DNA of 53,221 nucleotides. It comes from Calditrichota bacterium. Its GTDB lineage: Bacteria > Calditrichota > Calditrichia > Calditrichales > J004. This document shows, piece by piece, positions 32,917 to 47,020 of this stretch (position 1 is its first letter; every line of letters starts with the position of its first letter). The notes beneath the pieces were generated by a model. It saw nothing but the letters and a program-made list of their open reading frames with translations, was not told where the DNA came from and searched no databases. The DNA is taken from assembly GCA_003696775.1 (NCBI GenBank), contig RFFS01000073.1, positions 1 through 53,221 on the forward strand, in the 5' to 3' direction. The position numbers and the translations under genes were made by a program.

Positions 32917-34113
32917 ATGAAAGCCATGTTAATATTTTTAATCGTGTTGATCAGCCATCCCCTTACCGCCCAAACAGTTCCGGACTTACCCATCTCTCTC
33001 GGAGCAGGTTCCGCGGAAGTTTACCACAACGCCATTTATTATTTCGGCGGTTCCAACAACTGGAGCGGCAGCGTGGTTTATCCCCGCATCTATAAATATG
33101 ACGGACAAAGCTGGGCCCACTACGACAGCATACCGGACAACAATTTATGGGATGTGGAAACCGTTTTGACGGGTGACGATGTATATCTGATCAGCGGCTG
33201 GCCAAACGGCGCGTCCTTTTTACGCAAATATAATTTTTCCAACCGGCAATGGGAATATCTCCCTCAAAGCCCCAATACCAGCAGTTGGGGTGTGACGGCC
33301 GAGTATTTAAACGGCCATATCTATTTATTTCAACCAGGCAACGGCAATGTTTATGACTACAACATTTCCGACAGCACGTGGACAACACGAAACAACGCCG
33401 GTATTACCGGCCCTTTGAATCTGAGTTCCATCTTATATGAAGATGAAATTTATATCATCGGTTACAGCGATTCGGCTTTTGTCAAATACACGCCGGCCAC
33501 GGACCAATGGACATTTCTTTCCAAACCACCCTACCCGGTGGGCGCATCGGCCATGGGCATCATTAACAATAAAATTTACAATGTGGGCGGGAATGCCAAC
33601 GGCAGCAGCGCGGCGGAGTATAAAAAGGTGATCGTTTATGATATTACCACGGATCAATGGACAACGGACAGCCTGACCCTCTCCGCCAAACGGCATTGGA
33701 TGGCTACGGCATCCTATCAGGGCGGCTTGTATGTACTCGGCGGCTTCGACTCCACCGCCTATTCGGTTGCCACCGTGGAAGAGATCGTTCCACAGGGTAC
33801 GGCCACAACGCTGGCATCCGGTTTACCTCTTGCAACTCAGGGGTTTCAATTAAGGCAAAACTATCCCAACCCCTTTAATCCGCAAACACGAATTCCATAT
33901 ACGCTCACACAGGCCGCACATGTCAATTTATCCGTTTATAACACGGCGGGGCGCAAAGTAGCAACATTACTCAATGGCATCCAGGCCGCCGGCAGCCATT
34001 ACGTGAATTTCAGCAGAACGTCCTTATCCGCCGGGATTTATGTATATACGCTTACGGTTAGGGCAAAAGGTGTTACCCGTCAGGCGACGAGAAAAATGCT
34101 TTTGCTCAAATAA
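32917..34113 (+). CDS. Secreted kelch-repeat protein with C-terminal sorting domain
   Basis: 398 aa. A signal peptide (MKAMLIFLIVLISHPLTAQ) is followed by kelch-type beta-propeller blades (AIYYFGGSNNW, VYLISGWPNG, IYNVGGNANGSS, LYVLGGFDS). The last 85 residues form a sorting domain starting with the core QNYPNPFNPQTRIPY and ending ATRKMLLLK, the same type as in the subtilase at 13508. Such tails direct FCB proteins through type IX secretion. An AAAGGAG precedes the ATG. Extracellular or surface-exposed; ligand unknown. Confidence 0.9.
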   Translation: MKAMLIFLIVLISHPLTAQTVPDLPISLGAGSAEVYHNAIYYFGGSNNWSGSVVYPRIYKYDGQSWAHYDSIPDNNLWDVETVLTGDDVYLISGWPNGASFLRKYNFSNRQWEYLPQSPNTSSWGVTAEYLNGHIYLFQPGNGNVYDYNISDSTWTTRNNAGITGPLNLSSILYEDEIYIIGYSDSAFVKYTPATDQWTFLSKPPYPVGASAMGIINNKIYNVGGNANGSSAAEYKKVIVYDITTDQWTTDSLTLSAKRHWMATASYQGGLYVLGGFDSTAYSVATVEEIVPQGTATTLASGLPLATQGFQLRQNYPNPFNPQTRIPYTLTQAAHVNLSVYNTAGRKVATLLNGIQAAGSHYVNFSRTSLSAGIYVYTLTVRAKGVTRQATRKMLLLK

Positions 34114-36512: not shown

Positions 36513-36618
36513 ATTCCATCCTTTTTATTGCCAATGTACGGTAAATCGTTTTACCGAACTGTAATTTTTGTTACATTGGTGTTTTAGTACATATTTTTTT
36601 AACCGGGAGGCAAACCGC

Positions 36619-37077
36619 ATGAAAAAGAAACTGTTCACCGGATTCGTTATCCTTTTGATTGCTTTGCAACTAATCCCCGTGGAGCGCGACAATCCGCCCG
36701 TCCATGAGGCCGAAACCCTTAAAATGCCACCCAAAGTGCAAAGCATAGTTCAACGCGCCTGTTACGACTGCCATTCCAATACAACCCGCTGGCCGTGGTA
36801 CAGTTATGTGGCACCGGTTTCCTTTTTTGTGGCCCATCATGTGGAGGAAGGGCGTGATGAACTGAATTTCAGCAAATGGTCAACATACTCAGCCAAAAGA
36901 AAAAGCAAAAAGCTGAAAGAAATTCGGGAACAGGTTAAAAAAGGCAAGATGCCGCTGTACGGCTATGTCTTGCTGCATCCGGATGCGGCCCTGAGCGAAA
37001 GCGATATTCAATTGATTAAAACATGGACTGAACAGGCGGATACCCTGTATGTGAAGACGGAGAAAAAAAAGGAATGA
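36619..37077 (+). CDS. Heme-binding-domain (mono-heme c-type) membrane-anchored protein
   Basis: 152 aa from ATG 36619 with GGGAGG 8 nt ahead; the longer frame to 36568 is not favoured. An N-terminal membrane helix (LFTGFVILLIALQLIPV) anchors a periplasmic domain with one heme c motif CYDCHSN. The context RWPWYSYVAPVSFFVAHHVEEGR and MPLYGYVLLHPDAALSE is typical of the Haem_bd (PF14376) family. Such proteins are common in Bacteroidetes near respiratory genes. It overlaps the next gene by 4 nt (ATGA). The c-type cytochrome cluster begins about 1.8 kb downstream. Confidence 0.87.
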   Translation: MKKKLFTGFVILLIALQLIPVERDNPPVHEAETLKMPPKVQSIVQRACYDCHSNTTRWPWYSYVAPVSFFVAHHVEEGRDELNFSKWSTYSAKRKSKKLKEIREQVKKGKMPLYGYVLLHPDAALSESDIQLIKTWTEQADTLYVKTEKKKE

Positions 37078-37808: not shown

Positions 37809-38594
37809 TCAGGCCAGTCCGCCCAAAACATCTCCCACCCAATAAGCGGCTGAGGCAGCAATGGAACCGACTATAAACATTTCCAGTCCGGATATGAACC
37901 AGTGCCGCTCTGTGAAGATGGATTTTAACGCGCCCAGAACAAACAAGGTCAGGCCGGTAATCAGCGAAGAAGCCAGAAAAGGATCACTGACCATGCCGGG
38001 ATGAAACCAGTTCAACAATGGGACAACCAACGGCACAAACCCAAACAAAGCAAAAGAGAAAAATGTAACAACGGCGTTTTTCAAAGGTGATTCCAGATCG
38101 TATAACAATCCCAACTCTTCCACCATCATAATACTCAGCCAGGCTTTTTCATCCTTGGAGATGATATCCACCACGGTACGGGCGTCTTCTTCGCTGATGC
38201 CCTTGGCCATATAAAGTTCGATCATCTCCTTTTTTTCACCTTCGGGGTAATTGCGAAATTCCCATTTTTCCCTTTGATACTCCGCTTCCTTATATTCGTT
38301 TTCCGCGCGTGTGCTTAAAAAATCGCCAATGGCCATGGAAAGTCCGTCGGCTATCAGATTGGCAAACCCCAAAATCAAAACCACACCGGCGGAAAGCGAG
38401 GCCCCGGCCACCCCGGCCACAACGGCAAAGGTGGTAATTATACCGTCCAACCCGCCATAAACCGCGCTTTTAATATACTGGCCGTGATCACTGCCATGCG
38501 GTTCGTCTCCATGCTCATCATGTGCCACGCGCAATGCTTCGATATCTTTTGTTTTATAGGCGTGCCGCGCTTTTTCCAGGCTGCGGGATAACAT
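37809..38594 (-). CDS. VIT1/CCC1-family iron/manganese transporter
   Basis: 261 aa. The first membrane segment carries the family signature SAVYGGLDGIITTFAVVAGVAG, shown here in part as GGLDGIITTFAVVAG. A cytoplasmic metal-binding stretch rich in Glu follows (YKEAEYQREKWEFRNYPEGEKKEMIELY), and about five membrane helices in total can be read. VIT1/CCC1 proteins move Fe(II) or Mn(II) out of the cytosol. Here that would be across the inner membrane. It lies immediately before the multiheme cytochrome cluster on the opposite strand; a link to iron supply for hemes is speculation. Confidence 0.92.
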   Translation of the reverse strand: MLSRSLEKARHAYKTKDIEALRVAHDEHGDEPHGSDHGQYIKSAVYGGLDGIITTFAVVAGVAGASLSAGVVLILGFANLIADGLSMAIGDFLSTRAENEYKEAEYQREKWEFRNYPEGEKKEMIELYMAKGISEEDARTVVDIISKDEKAWLSIMMVEELGLLYDLESPLKNAVVTFFSFALFGFVPLVVPLLNWFHPGMVSDPFLASSLITGLTLFVLGALKSIFTERHWFISGLEMFIVGSIAASAAYWVGDVLGGLA

Positions 38595-38852: not shown

Positions 38853-39704
38853 ATGTTTAAGAAGATGGTCTATTTAGTCAGCCTGACGGCAATCGGTTAT
38901 ATCTTTTATCGTTATTGGGACTATTACACCCTGCCCTATGCCCTGCGCCCGCGGCATGAGTTATACAACCTGCTAAAACCGGGAGGTCTGTTTGGACATG
39001 GAGTGGGCATCATCGGTTCCGCCATGATGATCCTTTTGCTGCTCTATTCCGTACGCAAACGTACACGACTGTTCGGCCGGTTCGGTGCGGTCAGCCGCTG
39101 GTTGGATGTACATATCTTTTTCGGTACCATCGGGCCTTTATTGATTGTATTGCATTCCACATTTAAACTCAACGGTATTGTATCCATCAGTTTCTGGTCC
39201 ATGGTGAGCGTGGCCTTAAGCGGATTTGTGGGCCGCTACCTCTATATCCAGATTCCGAGAACCCTGCGGGGCCGGGAATTGACACTGGAGGAGATTGACA
39301 ACCGCCGCCGGGCCCTGCGCGAGGAACTGATGCAGAAATACCACCTGGAGGAGCGGGAAATTCATCAGGTTGCCGCTTCCTTAAGTATTAAAGCCGGACA
39401 AAAAACTTTGCTCGGTTTGTTGTTTGGCATGGCCCTTGCCGATATCAAGCGTTTGTTTACTTTTAAAAAGGTCAAACGTACGTTAATGCGCCGTCATAAA
39501 ATCAGCAAAAACGAAGCGGTTGAATTTTTGAATATGGTTACGGAAAAGGCTTTGCTGGAACGCCGTAAACGTATTTGGGAGCGGGTGCATACTCTTTTCC
39601 ACTACTGGCATGTGTTTCATAAACCTTTTGCCATCATCATGTATCTGATAATGATCATACATGTTTCGGTTTCGGTTTGGTTGGGTTACACCTGGATATT
39701 CTGA
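38853..39704 (+). CDS. Membrane b-type cytochrome-like protein of the multiheme cluster
   Basis: 283 aa. Five hydrophobic segments can be read, at about 5-22, 50-68, 88-107, 113-130 and 260-280. A charged cytoplasmic-type loop separates the fourth and fifth (residues 140-255). Histidines lie at helix positions that could hold heme b: FGHGVGIIG, VHIFFGTIG, VLHSTFK, HYWHVFHK and IIHVSVSV. It does not match a cytochrome b family I can name; it is reminiscent of ferric-reductase-like and cytochrome b561 folds. It is the first gene of the operon, and its stop overlaps the next start (TGATG). It is the likely inner-membrane electron entry or exit point. Confidence 0.78.
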   Translation: MFKKMVYLVSLTAIGYIFYRYWDYYTLPYALRPRHELYNLLKPGGLFGHGVGIIGSAMMILLLLYSVRKRTRLFGRFGAVSRWLDVHIFFGTIGPLLIVLHSTFKLNGIVSISFWSMVSVALSGFVGRYLYIQIPRTLRGRELTLEEIDNRRRALREELMQKYHLEEREIHQVAASLSIKAGQKTLLGLLFGMALADIKRLFTFKKVKRTLMRRHKISKNEAVEFLNMVTEKALLERRKRIWERVHTLFHYWHVFHKPFAIIMYLIMIIHVSVSVWLGYTWIF

Positions 39705-41365
39705 TGAAACGATTCAAACACATCTTGTTTATTACGGCTGTATTATTGCCATTCAAATGCCTGTTCGCGCAACTGTCACCCGGAGATTTGCACCGTTCGC
39801 ACGCTTTTCTCGAAGGGCTGGAAAATTGTACTAAATGTCATGAAAGCGGCCGAAAGCTTAATCCGGATAAATGTCTGGATTGTCATGTTGTGCTTAAAAA
39901 ACGCATTGACAATAAAAAAGGGCTTCATGCCGGTAAAAAATTCAAAGATTGCGCCACCTGCCATGTGGAACACCACGGTCGCGATTTTGACCTGATTTAT
40001 TGGGAAAACGGTCGGAATAATTTTGATCATAAAGCCACCGGTTACACGCTTGAGGGCGCCCACGCCAAACAAAAATGCCGCGATTGCCACGCCCCCCAAA
40101 ATATCCGCGGTCCGGATTGGGAAGTGCTGAAAAAGGCTAAAAAGAAAGCGGATCATACCTATTTGGGGCTTAACACCGACTGCCTTTCCTGTCATCGGGA
40201 TGAACACCGCGGCCAACTCTCCGAAAAATGCACAAACTGCCACAACTTTAAGGCCTGGTCGCCCGCTCCGGGTTTTGATCACGGCACAACAAAATATCCC
40301 CTGACCGGTTTACATAAAAAAGTAAAATGCGCTCAATGCCACAAAACCATTACAGACAACAAATACCCGAAAGACAAAAGTTATGTTCGTTTTGCCGGAT
40401 TACGATTTCCGGCCTGTATCAATTGTCATAAAGACCCGCACCAAAACAAATTCGGCTCCCGGTGCCGCACCTGTCACGTAACCGACGGTTGGAAACAATA
40501 TAATAAACAGAAATTCAACCATGATAAAACCCGGTATCCGTTAGAAGGCCGGCATCGCGACCTGGCCTGCGAGGCGTGTCATAAACCCGGTCAGCCCCTT
40601 CGCATCAAACGGTTTTCACAATGTCGGGACTGTCACCGTGATGCACACGCCGGGCAATTTTTGCACAGTTCCTCGCGCGGCGCCTGCGCGGCGTGTCATG
40701 ATGTAAACGGATTTAAACCCGCGCATTATACCATTCAAGAACACCAGACGTGCGCCTTTCCTCTCGAGGGGGCGCATCGGGCCGTGCCTTGTATCGCCTG
40801 CCATAAACAAGCGTTGATTTCCGGCCGTACCCGAACCATGCAATTCAGGTTTAAAAACCTGCGCTGCCAAACCTGCCATGATGATGTTCACAAGGGAACG
40901 GTTAACCGCTGGATGACCGAAAAAAATCCGACCGGTCGGGTTGGCTGCCGGGCCTGCCATTCTTCCGTATCCTGGTCGGATATCGCTTTTGATCATGACC
41001 AAACCGACTTTCCCTTACAGGGACGCCATAAGGATGTCGCCTGTAAAAAATGTCATTATCAGACCAGAGGCGCCGCGCCCCACTGGCGCTTCACGAACAG
41101 TCCCACCCGATGCGCTTCCTGTCATAATGATATCCATCGCGGTCAATTTGCCTCTTCTGACGGGCAAGTGGATTGTGTTCGGTGCCATACACCCGACAAC
41201 TGGAAAGCGGAAAAATTCAACCATGAAACCGACAGCCGATTTAAACTGGAAGGCGCCCATGAAAGCGTGGCCTGCGTACAATGTCATAAACCTGCCATCC
41301 TAAATGGTACGAAATTTGTAAAGTATAAACCCCTCGATATGCGTTGTGAAGCATGCCACGGGTAG
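39704..41365 (+). CDS. 20-heme c-type cytochrome
   Basis: 553 aa from the ATG at 39704, which overlaps the preceding stop; a signal peptide (MKRFKHILFITAVLLPFKCLFA) opens it. I count 20 CxxCH motifs, from CTKCH near the N-terminus to CEACH at the last residues. They recur in a unit: F(D/N)H..T.(Y/F)PL.G.H followed by C..CH. The histidines in FDH and GxH are good candidates for the second axial ligands. No catalytic domain is visible, so it looks like an electron wire rather than an enzyme. Periplasmic or outer-membrane facing. Co-translated between the b-type protein and the next cytochrome. Confidence 0.95.
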   Translation: MKRFKHILFITAVLLPFKCLFAQLSPGDLHRSHAFLEGLENCTKCHESGRKLNPDKCLDCHVVLKKRIDNKKGLHAGKKFKDCATCHVEHHGRDFDLIYWENGRNNFDHKATGYTLEGAHAKQKCRDCHAPQNIRGPDWEVLKKAKKKADHTYLGLNTDCLSCHRDEHRGQLSEKCTNCHNFKAWSPAPGFDHGTTKYPLTGLHKKVKCAQCHKTITDNKYPKDKSYVRFAGLRFPACINCHKDPHQNKFGSRCRTCHVTDGWKQYNKQKFNHDKTRYPLEGRHRDLACEACHKPGQPLRIKRFSQCRDCHRDAHAGQFLHSSSRGACAACHDVNGFKPAHYTIQEHQTCAFPLEGAHRAVPCIACHKQALISGRTRTMQFRFKNLRCQTCHDDVHKGTVNRWMTEKNPTGRVGCRACHSSVSWSDIAFDHDQTDFPLQGRHKDVACKKCHYQTRGAAPHWRFTNSPTRCASCHNDIHRGQFASSDGQVDCVRCHTPDNWKAEKFNHETDSRFKLEGAHESVACVQCHKPAILNGTKFVKYKPLDMRCEACHG

Positions 41366-41373
41366 GAGAATTT

Positions 41374-43296
41374 ATGGGAATTTGCAGGCGAATGACTTTT
41401 ATAAAATGTTTGGCGGGGCTTATGCTTATACAGGTGTTTTGTGCCCGCGGCCAGGAAACCACCCGCAATCCCCACGGCCCCCTGCCCGGTTTTGAATGCG
41501 TTACCTGTCATACAACTACCAACTTTCATGACATCCCTGCTTTTAAATTCAATCATGATCAAACCGGTTATCCGCTTATCGGCCGGCATGGCAAGGTACC
41601 CTGCGCTTCCTGTCACCAAAGCCTTGTTTTTAAGCAGGTGGGTGTCGCCTGCGCGGATTGCCACACCGATGTCCATCAGGGAGAATTGGGCATACGTTGT
41701 GAAAACTGCCACACCACGGCAGGTTGGGAAAATCGCATGGATATGCTGGATATGCATAATCAGACCAATTTTCCCCTTGTTGGTGTGCATGCTAACCTGG
41801 AATGCACATCCTGCCATCGGACAACCGACGCCGGACACCAATTCAGCAACACACCGGTCCAATGTAAAGGATGCCACCTGACCACCTTTATGAAAACACT
41901 TAATCCCGCACACCAAAAAGCGGGTTTCGACCTAAACTGCGAAAAATGCCATTTGCCCAATCAAAGAGGCTGGAAAAACGCCATTTTCGAACATACACAA
42001 CTTTTCCCACTCACCGGCGGACATGCCCGCCTGGAATGTATTTCCTGCCATGCCAATGGTTATGGCGGCACACAGGCCGATTGTTACACTTGCCATAAAA
42101 AAGATTACGAAAGCACCACCAACCCCGATCACGCATTATTCGGCTTTCCTACGGTATGTCAACAATGCCATACCACCACAACATGGGTCCGCGCGGAATT
42201 TGATCATCTCGAGGCCAGTGGTTTTGATTTAACCGGCGCGCACAGTACCATTCAATGCATCGATTGTCATGTAAACAATAAATTGAACGGCTTGCCGAGA
42301 GATTGTTTTGGCTGTCACAACACCGACTTTAACAACACCGATGATCCGAACCATGCCGCCAACAACTTCAGTCATGATTGCACCACCTGTCATAACACCA
42401 CACAGTGGTCTCCGGCTAACTTCGATCACGCCAACACCAATTTCCCGCTTACCGGCGCCCATACTTCCGTCAACTGCATCGACTGCCACAGCAACGGTTA
42501 CAGCAACACGCCTTCCGATTGCTGGAGTTGCCATAGCAGCGACTTTAACAATACGGACGATCCGAACCATGCCGCCAACAATTTCAGTCATGATTGCACC
42601 ACCTGTCATAACACCACACAGTGGTCGCCGGCTAACTTCGATCACGCCAACACCGATTTCCCGCTTACCGGCGCCCATACTTCCGTCAACTGTATCGACT
42701 GCCACAGCAACGGCTACACCAACACGCCCACCGATTGCTGGAGTTGCCATAGCAGTGATTTTAATGGTGTGCAGGACCCCAACCATGTAAGCAACAATTT
42801 CAGTCACGATTGCACCACCTGTCATAACACCACACAGTGGTCGCCGGCTAATTTTGATCATAACAATACCGACTTCCCGCTCACCGGCGCCCATAAGCAA
42901 CAGGATTGCGCCTCGTGCCATAGCAACGGTTACAGCAATACACCCACGGAATGCGTGGCCTGCCACCAGTCCGATTATGACGGCACAACCAATCCCAATC
43001 ACGCGGCCGCCGGTTTCCCAACCACCTGCGATGACTGCCATGACACGGATAATTGGGAAGGCGCTACGTTCGATCACGACAGCCAATATTTCCCCATCTA
43101 TTCCGGGAAGCATAAAAACGAATGGGATACATGCAGCGACTGCCATGTAAACAGTGACAACTACAAGCAATTTGAATGCATCAACTGCCATGAACACCGA
43201 AAATCTAAAATGGACGACGAACATAAGGATGTTAGCGGATATGTCTATAACAGCGCGAATTGTTATTCGTGTCATCCCAACGGGAAAGGGGATTAG
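41374..43296 (+). CDS. 25-heme c-type cytochrome with internal tandem repeats
   Basis: 640 aa from ATG 41374, with GGAG 5 nt ahead; the frame is open back to 41353. A signal peptide (MTFIKCLAGLMLIQVFCA, following a short MGICRR start) leads the protein out. I count 25 CxxCH motifs. Units have the form FDH.NT.FPLTGAH....C..CH.NGY..TP.DC..CH. Three consecutive 72-residue units (about residues 318-533) are almost identical and carry three hemes each. No other domain is visible. Likely a long periplasmic or surface-exposed heme wire. It overlaps the next cytochrome gene. Confidence 0.95.
   Translation: MGICRRMTFIKCLAGLMLIQVFCARGQETTRNPHGPLPGFECVTCHTTTNFHDIPAFKFNHDQTGYPLIGRHGKVPCASCHQSLVFKQVGVACADCHTDVHQGELGIRCENCHTTAGWENRMDMLDMHNQTNFPLVGVHANLECTSCHRTTDAGHQFSNTPVQCKGCHLTTFMKTLNPAHQKAGFDLNCEKCHLPNQRGWKNAIFEHTQLFPLTGGHARLECISCHANGYGGTQADCYTCHKKDYESTTNPDHALFGFPTVCQQCHTTTTWVRAEFDHLEASGFDLTGAHSTIQCIDCHVNNKLNGLPRDCFGCHNTDFNNTDDPNHAANNFSHDCTTCHNTTQWSPANFDHANTNFPLTGAHTSVNCIDCHSNGYSNTPSDCWSCHSSDFNNTDDPNHAANNFSHDCTTCHNTTQWSPANFDHANTDFPLTGAHTSVNCIDCHSNGYTNTPTDCWSCHSSDFNGVQDPNHVSNNFSHDCTTCHNTTQWSPANFDHNNTDFPLTGAHKQQDCASCHSNGYSNTPTECVACHQSDYDGTTNPNHAAAGFPTTCDDCHDTDNWEGATFDHDSQYFPIYSGKHKNEWDTCSDCHVNSDNYKQFECINCHEHRKSKMDDEHKDVSGYVYNSANCYSCHPNGKGD
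42325..42972 (+). repeat. Three tandem 216-bp coding repeats inside the 25-heme cytochrome
   Basis: Units start at 42325, 42541 and 42757, all opening GA(C/T)TTTAA, and are nearly identical over most of 216 bp (72 codons). Each contributes CTTCH, CIDCH (or CASCH in the third) and CWSCH (or CVACH). More diverged units flank them, starting at 42103 and 42973. The exact period and nucleotide-level identity point to recent in-frame duplication or gene conversion. Confidence 0.93.
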
Positions 43297-44083
43297 TCCT
43301 TTATTTTTTATCGTCGGGGTCTTTTTGGCCGTCATCCCCCTTTTCGGCCGGGAAAATCCCCACAACGCGACAATAGGCCCATGCGCCGACTGTCATATTG
43401 AGCAGGATTGGAATATGATACATTTTAATCATGATACGACCGGCTATCCCCTGATTGGCCGGCACAAGGAACAAGCCTGCGCGGCGTGTCATGATATTGT
43501 CGATTTCAAAAAGGTTGGCGCTGATTGCCGGGATTGTCATCTCGATGTGCATCAGGGGCGCTTAACCCCTCAATGCGCCACCTGTCACACACCCGGTAGC
43601 TGGGCTGTTTTATCCGCTGTGCAAGCTCACCGTTCCACATTTTTTCAATTGCTGGGCGCTCACGCCTCACTGGATTGCTATCAATGCCATCGTAACGGGA
43701 GGGACAATGGATTTTTAATAACGCAAACACTATGTGCCGATTGTCACATAGAAACGTACAACGCCACGGGTGCCCCAAACCACCGCGCGGCCGGATTCGG
43801 TTTGCAATGTGAACAATGCCATAATCTGATCCGTTGGACGCCCGCCTTATTTCCGGGCCATGATGATCTGTTTCCCATATTTAGCGGCACCCATTCCGGA
43901 GAATGGAACACCTGTGCCACCTGTCATGAGTCATCCGGTAACTATGCCGCTTTCACCTGTTTTAATTGCCACGAACATAACCGGGCGGCCACGGACAGCA
44001 AACATGATGAGGTTTCGGGATATGTATATGCAAGCAGCGCCTGTTATGCGTGTCACCCCACAGGGAGTGGTGAAAATGATTAA
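43241..44083 (+). CDS. 10-heme c-type cytochrome
   Basis: 280 aa if started at ATG 43241, which overlaps the end of the previous gene by 56 nt. That start gives a basic N-region and the hydrophobic stretch SPLFFIVGVFLAVIPLF, a plausible signal peptide. No better start with a ribosome-binding site is seen closer to 43297, and the exact start is uncertain. I count ten CxxCH motifs, from CADCH to CYACH. The opening FNHDTTGYPLIGRH and the ending EVSGYVYASSACYACHP closely resemble the start and end of the 25-heme protein. It therefore looks like a shortened paralogue lacking the repeated centre. Confidence 0.88.
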   Translation: MSITARIVIRVIPTGKGISPLFFIVGVFLAVIPLFGRENPHNATIGPCADCHIEQDWNMIHFNHDTTGYPLIGRHKEQACAACHDIVDFKKVGADCRDCHLDVHQGRLTPQCATCHTPGSWAVLSAVQAHRSTFFQLLGAHASLDCYQCHRNGRDNGFLITQTLCADCHIETYNATGAPNHRAAGFGLQCEQCHNLIRWTPALFPGHDDLFPIFSGTHSGEWNTCATCHESSGNYAAFTCFNCHEHNRAATDSKHDEVSGYVYASSACYACHPTGSGEND

Positions 44084-45704
44084 ACAAACCCATTGGACCC
44101 GATATATTCCGATCGGGCTGATTCTGTTGCTTGTATTAGCGCCCGCGACTGCTCTTTTCGCGCAGGGCAAGACCGTTTTTGCCGTAAAATATATCAGCGC
44201 GGAAAACGTTTATCTCAACGGCGGGGCGCGGGACAGCCTGGCGCAGGGTGATGAATGCACGGTATTGCACAACGGTAAGGAAATCGCCCGGTTGCGCGTG
44301 GCCTATGTCGCCGGTCATTCGGCTTCCTGTGAAATTCTGGAAAAAAAAGAGCCCATAAGCGCGGGAGATCGCGTGGTGGTGGTCAGGCGCGCCCCGCGCG
44401 TTTCGAATAAGAAGAAAGAAAAAACCGAAGCGGTGAAACAAGCGGCTCCCGTTAAAAAAAGAAAAAGACAACGTCGGTCCGCGGGGCCTAAAATCAGCGG
44501 ATACCTCTCGGCTCAATGGTACCGTTTTGACGACCTCGGCGCGGGCAACCGGGATTTTAATCAGCCAACCTTCCGTTTTAGTTTGCGCGCGCGCCGTTTG
44601 TTTGGCGATGCCTATACCCTGCGCATAAAAGCCCGTAGCCGTTACGACCAGCGACGCTACGCCAGTCGGACGGGCATTCCGGACAAGGAATGGCACAATC
44701 GGCTTTATGAAGTCTCTTTTCGTTATGAAAATGAAAACGCGCCGTTCAATTACGCCGTTGGTCGCGTGTTCTCCAACGCCTTCAGCGGTGTGGGGTACAT
44801 AGACGGCCTGATGGCGCAACACAATATCAATACCAACTGGCGCTGGGGGCTTTTTGGCGGTATCCAACCGGAATGGCAATACGCCGATGTCTCGGCCACC
44901 ATCCAAAAGTACGGTGTTTTTGCCTCATACAGCCTCGGCGATTTCCGTACCAGACGTTTTGCTTCCACCTTGTCGCTGGCCGGGGCGTACCATAACAGCG
45001 AGGTGAGCCGGGAATTTATGTATTGGCAAAACAGCTATACGGTCGGCAGCCGTCTGTACCTGTTTCAAAGTTTGGAATTGGACCTGAATCGCGATTGGAA
45101 ACAGACCACCACCCACGAATCGGTCAGCATGACGGGTTTGTATCTGAACGGGCGTTATCAATTCAACAATCAATGGTCGTTGGGCATGAGTTATGATAAT
45201 CGCAAGAATTATCTGACGTGGTTTTCCCGTGATTTGGCCGATAGTTTATTTGACGATGCTTTCCGTCAGGGTTTACGCCTGTCGGTCAACGGTCGTTTAT
45301 TCCGGAATTTCCGTGTTTACGGTAATGCCGGACTGCGCCATCGTCAGGATCAACCGGATATAACCTGGTCGTACATGGCCGGGGTTAACTGGAATCGTAT
45401 CATGCGCACGGCATTCAATTTTAATTTCCGATACGCCGGTTTCAACAATTTCTATACGATCGGCGTTAACCCGACGGTCTCCGCCGGGTGGCGGATGCGC
45501 GGCGGCCATCAGCTTCGGGCGTCCTACGGCTATTACGGATACACCTTAAAAGCCGATCAAAGTTTTAACCAGCGGCAATGGATGCGGTTTAATGCCGATT
45601 TCGAGCTGCCGGTTCGGATCTTTTTAAGCTCGGAATATCAATATGAATGGGGAGACGATTTAAACGGGCAACGTTTTTTTATTGAATTGGGATACAGGTT
45701 GTAG
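44076..45704 (+). CDS. Outer-membrane beta-barrel protein of the multiheme cluster
   Basis: 542 aa from ATG 44076, which overlaps the preceding stop by 8 nt. A signal peptide (YIPIGLILLLVLAPATALFA) leads to a small periplasmic beta-domain (about 30-110, KTVFAVKYISAENVYLNGG to AGDRVVVVRR). A very basic linker follows (KKEKTEAVKQAAPVKKRKRQ), then about 380 residues of alternating strands with aromatic girdle residues. It ends in the terminal strand FFIELGYRL, the usual barrel C-terminus. Position among the cytochromes suggests it houses or receives a multiheme wire, as MtrB-type porins do; sequence similarity to MtrB is not apparent. Confidence 0.85.
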   Translation: MIKQTHWTRYIPIGLILLLVLAPATALFAQGKTVFAVKYISAENVYLNGGARDSLAQGDECTVLHNGKEIARLRVAYVAGHSASCEILEKKEPISAGDRVVVVRRAPRVSNKKKEKTEAVKQAAPVKKRKRQRRSAGPKISGYLSAQWYRFDDLGAGNRDFNQPTFRFSLRARRLFGDAYTLRIKARSRYDQRRYASRTGIPDKEWHNRLYEVSFRYENENAPFNYAVGRVFSNAFSGVGYIDGLMAQHNINTNWRWGLFGGIQPEWQYADVSATIQKYGVFASYSLGDFRTRRFASTLSLAGAYHNSEVSREFMYWQNSYTVGSRLYLFQSLELDLNRDWKQTTTHESVSMTGLYLNGRYQFNNQWSLGMSYDNRKNYLTWFSRDLADSLFDDAFRQGLRLSVNGRLFRNFRVYGNAGLRHRQDQPDITWSYMAGVNWNRIMRTAFNFNFRYAGFNNFYTIGVNPTVSAGWRMRGGHQLRASYGYYGYTLKADQSFNQRQWMRFNADFELPVRIFLSSEYQYEWGDDLNGQRFFIELGYRL

Positions 45705-45706
45705 CT

Positions 45707-47020
45707 ATGCAGGAAAGTTATCTGATTTGGGGCGGCACGCTGTTTATGGCGCTGATCATCATTTTTCCTTTTATCCGGGCGCATCACAAAACACTTAAGA
45801 AAGATGAAGCGCGCAAAAAAGAAGCGGTCTTCCTCGGCGCCGACAAAACCATTGCCCAGCACCCGATCATCGATGAATACCGTTGCATTGGCTGCGGGGC
45901 CTGCGTGGATGCCTGCCCTGAAAATGATGTGCTGGGTATAGTCGCCGGCAAAGCCACCATCATTAACGGCTTAAAGTGTGTGGGGCACGGCATGTGCGCG
46001 GAAGCCTGCCCCGTGGAAGGTATAACCGTGGGCCTGGGTGATACGAGTAAACGCTCCGACCTGCCCTTTATCAGGGAAAACCGTGAAACCAATCTGCCCC
46101 GTGTGTACATTGCCGGAGAGCTGGGCGGGCTGGCATTGATAAAAAACGCCATCCGTCAGGGGCGCGAGGTGGCCCTGGATATCGCTGAACGAATCAAAAA
46201 GAACCCGGACATTCCCGCAAGCGATAATGCGGTCGATGTCATAATTGTGGGCGCCGGGCCATCCGGGATGAGCGCCGCCCTGACCGCCATCGAAAACAAT
46301 CTCACCTATCGACTGTTAGACCAGCAAGACCCCGGCGGCACCATTTTACAATATCCGCGAAAAAAACTGGTTATGACCAAACCGGTTACCATTCCCTTTT
46401 ACGGAACCCTGACCAAACCGGAATACTCAAAGGAAGAGTTGTTGGATATTTGGTATGCCGTCATGGATAAATCCGGCCTAAAAGTGGAAACGGGATGCAA
46501 ACTGACCGGTTTGCAGGAGGAGGGCGCGTATTACCGGGTGACCACCAACAATGGCAGCTTTAAAAGCCGCTATGTGGTTTTGGCTTTGGGACGGCGGGGA
46601 ACACCGCGCAAACTGGGCGTACCCGGCGAAGACAAACCCAAGGTCATGTACAAATTGATCGACGCCGAAACCTTTACGGACAATCATATTTTGGTGGTCG
46701 GCGGCGGGGACAGTGCCGTGGAAGCCGCCATGGGTCTGGCACGGCAAAAAGGAAACCGCGTGGTGCTTTCGTATCGCAAGGAAAAGTTCTTCCGCATTAA
46801 AAGACGGAACCAGGAGCGGCTGGAAGCCATGATCCATGATAAAAAAATCATGGTCTTATACAATTCCCACCTGCGACGCATAGACGATTCCGCCGTGGTG
46901 GTGGAATGGATGGGTGAAAAGAAAAAAATCCGTAATGACTATGTATTCATTTTTGCCGGCGGCGAACCGCCCTTTGAGTTACTTAAACAGTGCGGTATTC
47001 AATTCGGAACGACGGATTAA
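45707..47020 (+). CDS. Membrane-anchored ferredoxin/FAD-NAD(P)H oxidoreductase
   Basis: 437 aa. A single N-terminal helix (LIWGGTLFMALIIIFPFI) anchors the protein. Residues 55-105 hold two ferredoxin-like clusters. The first is complete: Cys60, 63, 66 and 70 in CIGCGACVDACP. The second reads CVGHGMCAEACP, with His where the second Cys is expected. A thioredoxin-reductase-like flavoprotein follows, with FAD motif IIVGAGPSGMSAA and NAD(P) motif LVVGGGDSAVEAA. The redox CxxC of thioredoxin reductase is absent, so it is more like a ferredoxin/flavin reductase. It starts 2 nt after the barrel gene. Its likely task is electron exchange between NAD(P)H and the membrane cytochrome. Confidence 0.88.
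   Translation: MQESYLIWGGTLFMALIIIFPFIRAHHKTLKKDEARKKEAVFLGADKTIAQHPIIDEYRCIGCGACVDACPENDVLGIVAGKATIINGLKCVGHGMCAEACPVEGITVGLGDTSKRSDLPFIRENRETNLPRVYIAGELGGLALIKNAIRQGREVALDIAERIKKNPDIPASDNAVDVIIVGAGPSGMSAALTAIENNLTYRLLDQQDPGGTILQYPRKKLVMTKPVTIPFYGTLTKPEYSKEELLDIWYAVMDKSGLKVETGCKLTGLQEEGAYYRVTTNNGSFKSRYVVLALGRRGTPRKLGVPGEDKPKVMYKLIDAETFTDNHILVVGGGDSAVEAAMGLARQKGNRVVLSYRKEKFFRIKRRNQERLEAMIHDKKIMVLYNSHLRRIDDSAVVVEWMGEKKKIRNDYVFIFAGGEPPFELLKQCGIQFGTTD

Follow-up and report, generated by a model that had tools for sequence, protein, structure and literature searches.

A predicted PCC3-like porin-cytochrome conduit with a dedicated NAD(P)H-linked flavoprotein in Calditrichota and other phyla

What use does a Calditrichota bacterium make of six adjoining genes that together encode 55 c-type heme sites, a membrane protein, an outer-membrane barrel and a flavoprotein? 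The genes, here named A to F, lie on the plus strand at positions 38853-47020 of contig RFFS01000073.1, the 53,221 nucleotides of which are referred to as the window, in a genome of 3.25 Mb and 201 contigs. The reading favoured here, with a probability of about 0.58, is that they specify an electron conduit through the cell envelope, of the predicted PCC3 kind and equipped with its own NAD(P)H dehydrogenase, with outward disposal of electrons as its most likely use. The features on which this reading is built are as follows.

38853-39704, plus strand: gene A, diheme b-type inner-membrane protein of the PCC3 type, 283 residues (motifs; weak Ferric_reduct/DUF4405/b561 similarity)
39704-41365, plus strand: gene B, 20-heme c-type cytochrome with a signal peptide, 553 residues, putatively periplasmic (CXXCH count)
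41374-43296 (alternative start 41353), plus strand: gene C, 25-heme repeat cytochrome, 640 residues, putative outer wire (CXXCH count)
42324-42895, plus strand: tandem repeat in gene C, 216 bp (72 residues, three hemes), 2.6 copies (TRF, 90% matches)
43241-44083, plus strand: gene D, 10-heme cytochrome, short paralog of C (CXXCH count, match to C)
44076-45704, plus strand: gene E, 22-strand outer-membrane beta-barrel with an N-terminal FlgT_C-like domain, 542 residues (AlphaFold2)
45707-47020, plus strand: gene F, membrane-anchored Fe-S/FAD pyridine-nucleotide oxidoreductase, 437 residues, putative NAD(P)H entry enzyme (motifs; Pyr_redox_3, 1e-42)

An original prediction, made from the DNA letters, had assigned 20, 25 and 10 CXXCH motifs to the three cytochromes, and a recount returned exactly these numbers. 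The F(D/N)H..PL.G.H..C..CH unit that it considered common to the cytochromes likewise forms the B consensus and occurs repeatedly in C. Of 60 degenerate-CXXCH matches in the window, 55 fall within the locus, where about 3.5 would be expected in the whole window; this count, together with the conservation of the genes, rules out chance or an annotation artefact. The genes are co-directional as predicted, and are joined by a 1-nt overlap (A/B), an 8-nt gap (B/C), an 8-nt overlap (D/E) and a 2-nt gap (E/F). The claim that every junction measures less than 10 nt fails only at C/D, where starting D at the in-frame ATG at 43241 gives an overlap of 56 nt. Hydrophobic, signal-like segments are found at the N-termini of B, C, D and E, and a single helix at that of F.

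Whether the six genes form a unit can be judged from their recurrence, which the prediction had proposed as a check. An alignment of A was used to scan GTDB contigs and yielded 482 relatives, the best 80 of which include members of the Zixibacteria, KSB1, Neomarinimicrobiota, WOR-3, Ignavibacteria, Bacteroidota, Acidobacteriota, Krumholzibacteria and Marinamargulisbacteria. Complete flanks, defined as 7.5 kb or more on the downstream side of A, are available for 39 loci among these 80; E is present in 38 of them, F in 36, and the full A/B/C/E/F set in 34. The gene set thus recurs in many phyla in three orders, namely ABC(C)EF (20 loci), AFBC(C)E (10, and one more with an extra C) and FABCE (three), with D missing from many relatives. 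That A, B, C, E and F stay together despite permutation of their order is strong evidence for one functional unit. The full set is seen across the Calditrichota, Zixibacteria, KSB1, Neomarinimicrobiota, Ignavibacteria, Bacteroidota and Acidobacteriota. Within 40 Calditrichota genomes A occurs in 24 and E in 21, and the order A-B-C-(D)-E-F is held across families of the phylum, including a single-contig genome of 4.98 Mb. Among the matches listed, strong relatives of A occur in 40 of 396 sampled Bacteroidota genomes (E<1e-70) and 33 of 297 sampled Acidobacteriota genomes (E<1e-55). The cultured Bacteroidota member Emticicia oligotrophica DSM 17448 carries the cluster on plasmid pEMTOL02 as ccsA-A-F-B-C-E, with 23 hemes in B and 40 in C. 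A separate observation in the Acidobacteriota concerns an A-like membrane domain within a long open frame (L194:8684-11164) that has flavoprotein and multiheme genes nearby; similar frames of 820-1000 residues (e.g. G449, G515, G698) occur in other acidobacterial sequences, and probably represent another class of entry module.

The set has a precedent that the original prediction missed: its components and the signature of its membrane protein match the predicted PCC3 clusters. These were described in Alpha-, Beta- and Gammaproteobacteria, including Gallionellaceae and Leptothrix, and consist of a porin, an extracellular multiheme cytochrome (10-85 hemes, median 34), a periplasmic multiheme cytochrome (approximately 21-27 hemes, median 21) and an inner-membrane protein of approximately 300 residues with five helices, an SGXXG motif and two WX3HX13H motifs, proposed to be quinone-active (He et al. 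2017; PMC5566968). PCC3 itself is still functionally unverified (PMC12442390). The A-F set shares with it the porin, a large repeat cytochrome, a second multiheme cytochrome that is putatively periplasmic, the membrane-protein signature, the repeats within its cytochromes and a low number of residues per heme. It differs in that B mostly has 20 hemes (3n+2) rather than 21, 24 or 27, in that E has 22 strands where PCC3 porins are predicted to be larger, and in the addition of F and often D in hosts that are FCB bacteria and Acidobacteriota. By architecture and signature rather than by a tree, the set is a predicted NAD(P)H-linked, triheme-quantised version of the PCC3 kind; it is called a variant because F accompanies it in those 36 of 39 flank-complete loci, unlike the four-gene PCC3 that lacks a flavoprotein. 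What is new relative to PCC3 is the host range and an F protein with an invariant His. Unnamed novel PCC types reported from Bacteroidetes and Verrucomicrobia (He et al. 2019; PMC6344600) may include the A-F set.

How electrons might enter such a conduit is suggested by A and F. Protein A carries W83x3H87x13H101 and W252x3H256x13H270 with S123GxxG127 between them, and the four His residues are invariant in 32 sequences of many phyla. It therefore bears the PCC3 signature, being approximately 300 residues long with SGXXG on transmembrane helix 4 and WX3HX13H on helices 3 and 5, the five helices being judged from sequence only. With the positive loops at 66-84 and 133-250 placed on the cytoplasmic side, the two heme pairs would stack across the membrane. 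In this arrangement A resembles the NADPH oxidases and ferric reductases, which also have two HX13H helices holding two b hemes and are fed by a cytosolic NADPH flavoprotein; here, in contrast, the flavin is carried on a polypeptide of its own, which differs in fold and contains Fe-S centres, and electrons would be passed on to a c-type wire.

Protein F was predicted to be a membrane Fe-S/FAD reductase, and this description stands: a single N-terminal helix (residues 5-23) is followed by two ferredoxin-type motifs and a pyridine-nucleotide FAD domain with GAGPSG (FAD) and GGGDSA motifs. The first Fe-S motif is C60xxC63xxC66xxxC70, the second Cys of which is kept in just 49 of 72 homologs. The second motif is C91xxH94xxC97xxxC101 (residues 91-101, CVGHGMCAEAC) and reads CxxHxxCxxxC in 71 of the 72, so that a His-ligated Fe-S cluster is likely. 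The FAD and pyridine-nucleotide domains resemble those of thioredoxin reductase and of YpdA/Bdr bacillithiol disulfide reductase (PDB 7a7b, 1.8e-28), to which F adds the membrane helix and the two ferredoxin motifs; its score for the YpdA/Bdr family is 171 bits, where the cut-off is 339.9. The Cys of the GPCG motif is the active cysteine of YpdA/Bdr, and it is found in none of the 72 homologs, being Ser in F of the window and Ala, Ser, Gly or Thr elsewhere. This absence rules out bacillithiol disulfide reductase and thioredoxin reductase as functions of F. The SYRK..F.R stretch that follows GGGDSA would suit NADPH.

A second line of evidence on the electron donor comes from proteobacterial plasmids (Sphingobium, Bradyrhizobium, Methylophaga, Alteromonas and, by annotation, Acetobacter), on which a homolog of A is flanked on one side by a B-related 7-heme cytochrome and on the other by a flavoprotein. 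Three of these A homologs were compared, and are 25-27% identical to A (1e-14 to 1e-23). The flavoprotein is annotated as a "2Fe-2S iron-sulfur cluster-binding protein" and, on inspection, combines ferredoxin-NADP reductase and plant-type ferredoxin parts, unrelated to F. That two unrelated NAD(P)H flavo-Fe-S proteins pair with one membrane protein suggests that A usually has an NAD(P)H-linked partner. The plasmids that were searched yielded only such three-gene relatives and the Emticicia cluster; the three-gene module (L149, L150, L151, L152, L200, L201) includes no porin and lies near copper-resistance or [NiFe]-hydrogenase genes.

These observations bear on a rival proposal, in which A oxidises quinol, the role suggested for PCC3 by He et al., and F is a separate NAD(P)H:quinone or regulatory enzyme. 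PCC3 has been described without F, and A is weakly similar to cytochrome b561 and ferric reductases. Six acidobacterial A-B-C-E clusters also lack an adjacent F; it is encoded elsewhere in three of these genomes and absent from the other three (E<=1e-25), and B, where it could be separately resolved in two of the genomes without F, has 24 hemes, a number also reported for proteobacterial PCC3 (PMC10734462). The set thus seems to exist in two subtypes, one with F and one lacking it. This proposal is nevertheless unlikely for the F-bearing set, because A and F share one cluster, often as neighbours, despite permuted orders, and because the Proteobacteria replace F, next to A, with an NAD(P)H flavo-Fe-S protein unrelated to it.

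Beyond the inner membrane, the favoured conduit would rely on the cytochromes, the heme numbers of which are quantised. Among 66 distinct homologs of B, 52 have 20 hemes and 65 follow 3n+2 (17, 20 or 23), and 62 of 69 C and D homologs follow 3n+1 when CX3-5CH sites are counted, over a range of 7 to 73; these sets partly share genomes, so that the rows are not fully independent. Heme number moves in triheme steps because of the 72-residue triheme module, and C appears to grow and shrink by tandem gain and loss of such modules. Single open frames with 73 and 67 CXXCH motifs are found at L106:11551-17034 (Zixibacteriota bacterium) and L099:6407-11557; the former has the same 216-bp repeat period as gene C, and its 73 hemes are no record. 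Protein D matches residues 30-150 and 517-640 of C at 47-48%, and would be a C that lacks the central array and keeps the N- and C-terminal modules. The C-terminal module shared by C and D, FPIYSGKH..W..C..CH ... F.C..CHEH ... GY.Y.S..CY.CHP.G, is kept in nearly all relatives and may be the part that docks to the barrel. A constrained heme number in B and a free one in C fit B as a spanner of the fixed periplasmic distance and C as a free outward extension, and the two are placed accordingly, B in the periplasm and C outward, as a prediction. Outside the CXXCH motifs, B, C and D contain 27, 31 and 12 further His residues, so that all hemes could be bis-His ligated, and at 26-28 residues per heme all three are wire-like by a published criterion (PMC5566968).

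Comparison with known cytochromes and enzymes places these proteins only broadly. The best PDB sequence match to the B profile is 3ov0 (9.8e-11), a Geobacter dodecaheme cytochrome that we take to be GSU1996; it has similar c7-like triheme units, and differs in its 12 hemes and in having no porin cluster. No sequence match in the PDB was found for C alone, and family searches with B and C gave, above cut-off, only c7/c3 heme domains of a generic kind and one short match to an MtrC/F domain. Thus no known enzyme is matched at family cut-off; such a match would have refuted the prediction, as would a gene order conserved nowhere or a barrel belonging to an unrelated transporter, and none of these three outcomes was observed. 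Its statement that the set has no MtrA similarity requires qualification, since B shows weak similarity both to decaheme cytochromes of the MtrA/DmsE family and to the MtrA structure in the PDB; this similarity is below cut-off (TIGR03508, 51 bits against 192.2), and B has 20 hemes. The accompanying claim of a conserved porin-cytochrome conduit with an inner-membrane entry module of its own is supported. The OmcS nanowire is matched marginally by the B profile (0.0071), and differs from C, a single long repeat chain.

Protein E answers to the predicted outer-membrane barrel. Its AlphaFold2 model, built with 51 sequences, has a pLDDT of 90.9 and 22 barrel strands within residues 139-541, without a plug; the N-terminal part consists of a small domain, hit by FlgT_C in 8 of the 51 homologs, followed by a basic, disordered linker to the barrel. 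No sequence relative of E was found in the PDB, and a viral library searched with E returned only generic barrels and the FlgT_C domain. The model matches only generic porins and ushers (query-normalised TM-score <=0.43 among the matches listed), and an unrelated transporter was rejected, as the barrel resembles no specific transporter family. A 22-strand barrel of this kind could hold a thin cytochrome; MtrB is larger.

Alternatively, the cytochromes could be periplasmic, storing electrons or serving a soluble periplasmic acceptor, with E an ordinary pore. B, C and D have ordinary signal peptides that lack a clear lipobox, none of the three was found to carry a surface anchor, and C ends in its conserved heme module, with no sorting tail of the type IX secretion kind seen. 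Such a store is nonetheless very unlikely, as a barrel occurs in nearly every cluster, a cytochrome of 7 to 73 hemes is hard to fit into a fixed periplasm, and the set contains no catalytic reductase domain.

Taken as a trans-envelope conduit, the set would operate as follows. F, held in the membrane by its single helix and with its domains facing the cytoplasm, would oxidise NAD(P)H at FAD, and single electrons would pass through its Fe-S centres, one with the invariant His replacing Cys, to A. They would then cross the inner membrane over two stacked b hemes, with H87 and H256 on the cytoplasmic side and H101 and H270 on the periplasmic side, in the manner of NADPH oxidases and ferric reductases. 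The 20-heme wire of B would carry them across the periplasm to E, a sleeve in the outer membrane, through or out of which C (and D) would take them, the reach of C varying with gain or loss of three-heme modules. NAD(P)H electrons would finally be delivered to minerals, humics or partner cells. Complex formation, cytochrome positions, direction (most likely outward), surface exposure and acceptor are all inferred. Outward flow through A would consume membrane potential rather than generate it, which looks like disposal of excess NAD(P)H and not energy-conserving respiration; the conduit would serve fermentative or facultative organisms as a redox-balancing sink, comparable to that of the "fermentative metal reducers". 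Fermenting isolates of Labilibaculum reduce both Fe(III) and Mn(IV) without a recognised pathway (PMC5760507), and the favoured reading gains support from a Labilibaculum genome (L147), not necessarily of those isolates, that carries the cluster.

In the opposite direction, Fe(II), minerals, H2 or partner cells would supply electrons that arrive through C, E, B and A, with F reducing NAD(P)+. PCC3 was proposed for Fe(II) oxidisers (PMC5566968), and the Alteromonas plasmid has its related three-gene module adjoining a [NiFe] hydrogenase, which suggests inward flow there. For the A-F set this direction is rather unlikely, as the transfer from Fe(II) to NADP+ is strongly uphill and against the inside-negative membrane potential, no coupling device is visible among A-F, and Calditrichota and Labilibaculum are mainly heterotrophic or fermentative. 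The hydrogenase neighbour is one of several points that count against the NAD(P)H-driven outward conduit. The three acidobacterial genomes without F indicate that A can work with another donor, possibly quinol. The structure model of B has a pLDDT of 85.6 and a pTM of only 0.46, and its fold search returned no match, which is not surprising when a heme protein is modelled without heme; its wire shape thus derives from sequence only. Emticicia is an aerobe, and members of the A-F family are known here from genes alone.

Among characterised systems, MtrCAB, MtoAB and PioAB share with the A-F set a porin sleeve with periplasmic and extracellular multiheme cytochromes, and differ in that the entry protein A is not CymA and E is not MtrB-like by sequence, MtrB being absent from the top 50 fold matches. 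The OmbB-OmaB-OmcB Pcc systems (Geobacter; Ignavibacterium IALB_1837/1838) likewise combine a porin, of 18-22 predicted strands (PMC4245776), with multiheme cytochromes, and differ in a 5-14-heme periplasmic partner and the lack of an A/F pair. Both kinds meet on one Ignavibacteria contig (L112/L195; approximately 3.6-6.1 kb of L195), where a 10-heme/14-heme pair like that of IALB_1837/1838 lies beside an A-F-type cluster.

Around the locus, a VIT1/CCC1-family (Fe/Mn) transporter is encoded divergently and immediately upstream of gene A (37809-38594, minus strand), and a Haem_bd-domain protein (PF14376) with one CXXCH lies shortly upstream of the cluster (36568-37077, plus strand). A Kelch-repeat protein with a C-terminal Por_Secre_tail sorting domain (32917-34113, plus strand) points to a type IX secretion system in this genome. 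The only RNA features of the window are two tRNAs at its start.

No published description of the F-bearing cluster was found in a non-exhaustive literature search, and the portion of the C. abyssi genome paper available does not mention it. Known inner-membrane entry points for extracellular electron transfer in Gram-negative bacteria (CymA, CbcL and ImcH) are quinol-linked (PMC6295460). A module that is NAD(P)H-linked and genetically tied to a complete conduit would, if true, represent a different energetic design. More tentatively, and at somewhat less than even odds, the set may perform quinone-independent extracellular electron transfer, running from NAD(P)H through a flavo-Fe-S protein with a His-ligated cluster, a diheme b protein and a 20-heme wire to a modular nanowire of up to 73 hemes, as a redox-balancing valve widespread in FCB bacteria and Acidobacteriota. 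Emticicia oligotrophica offers a cultured organism for testing, and the three-heme quantisation shows how wire length evolves. The cluster would also provide a marker for extracellular electron transfer in the Calditrichota, Zixibacteria, Bacteroidota and other groups, where metal reduction has been seen or suspected without a known pathway.

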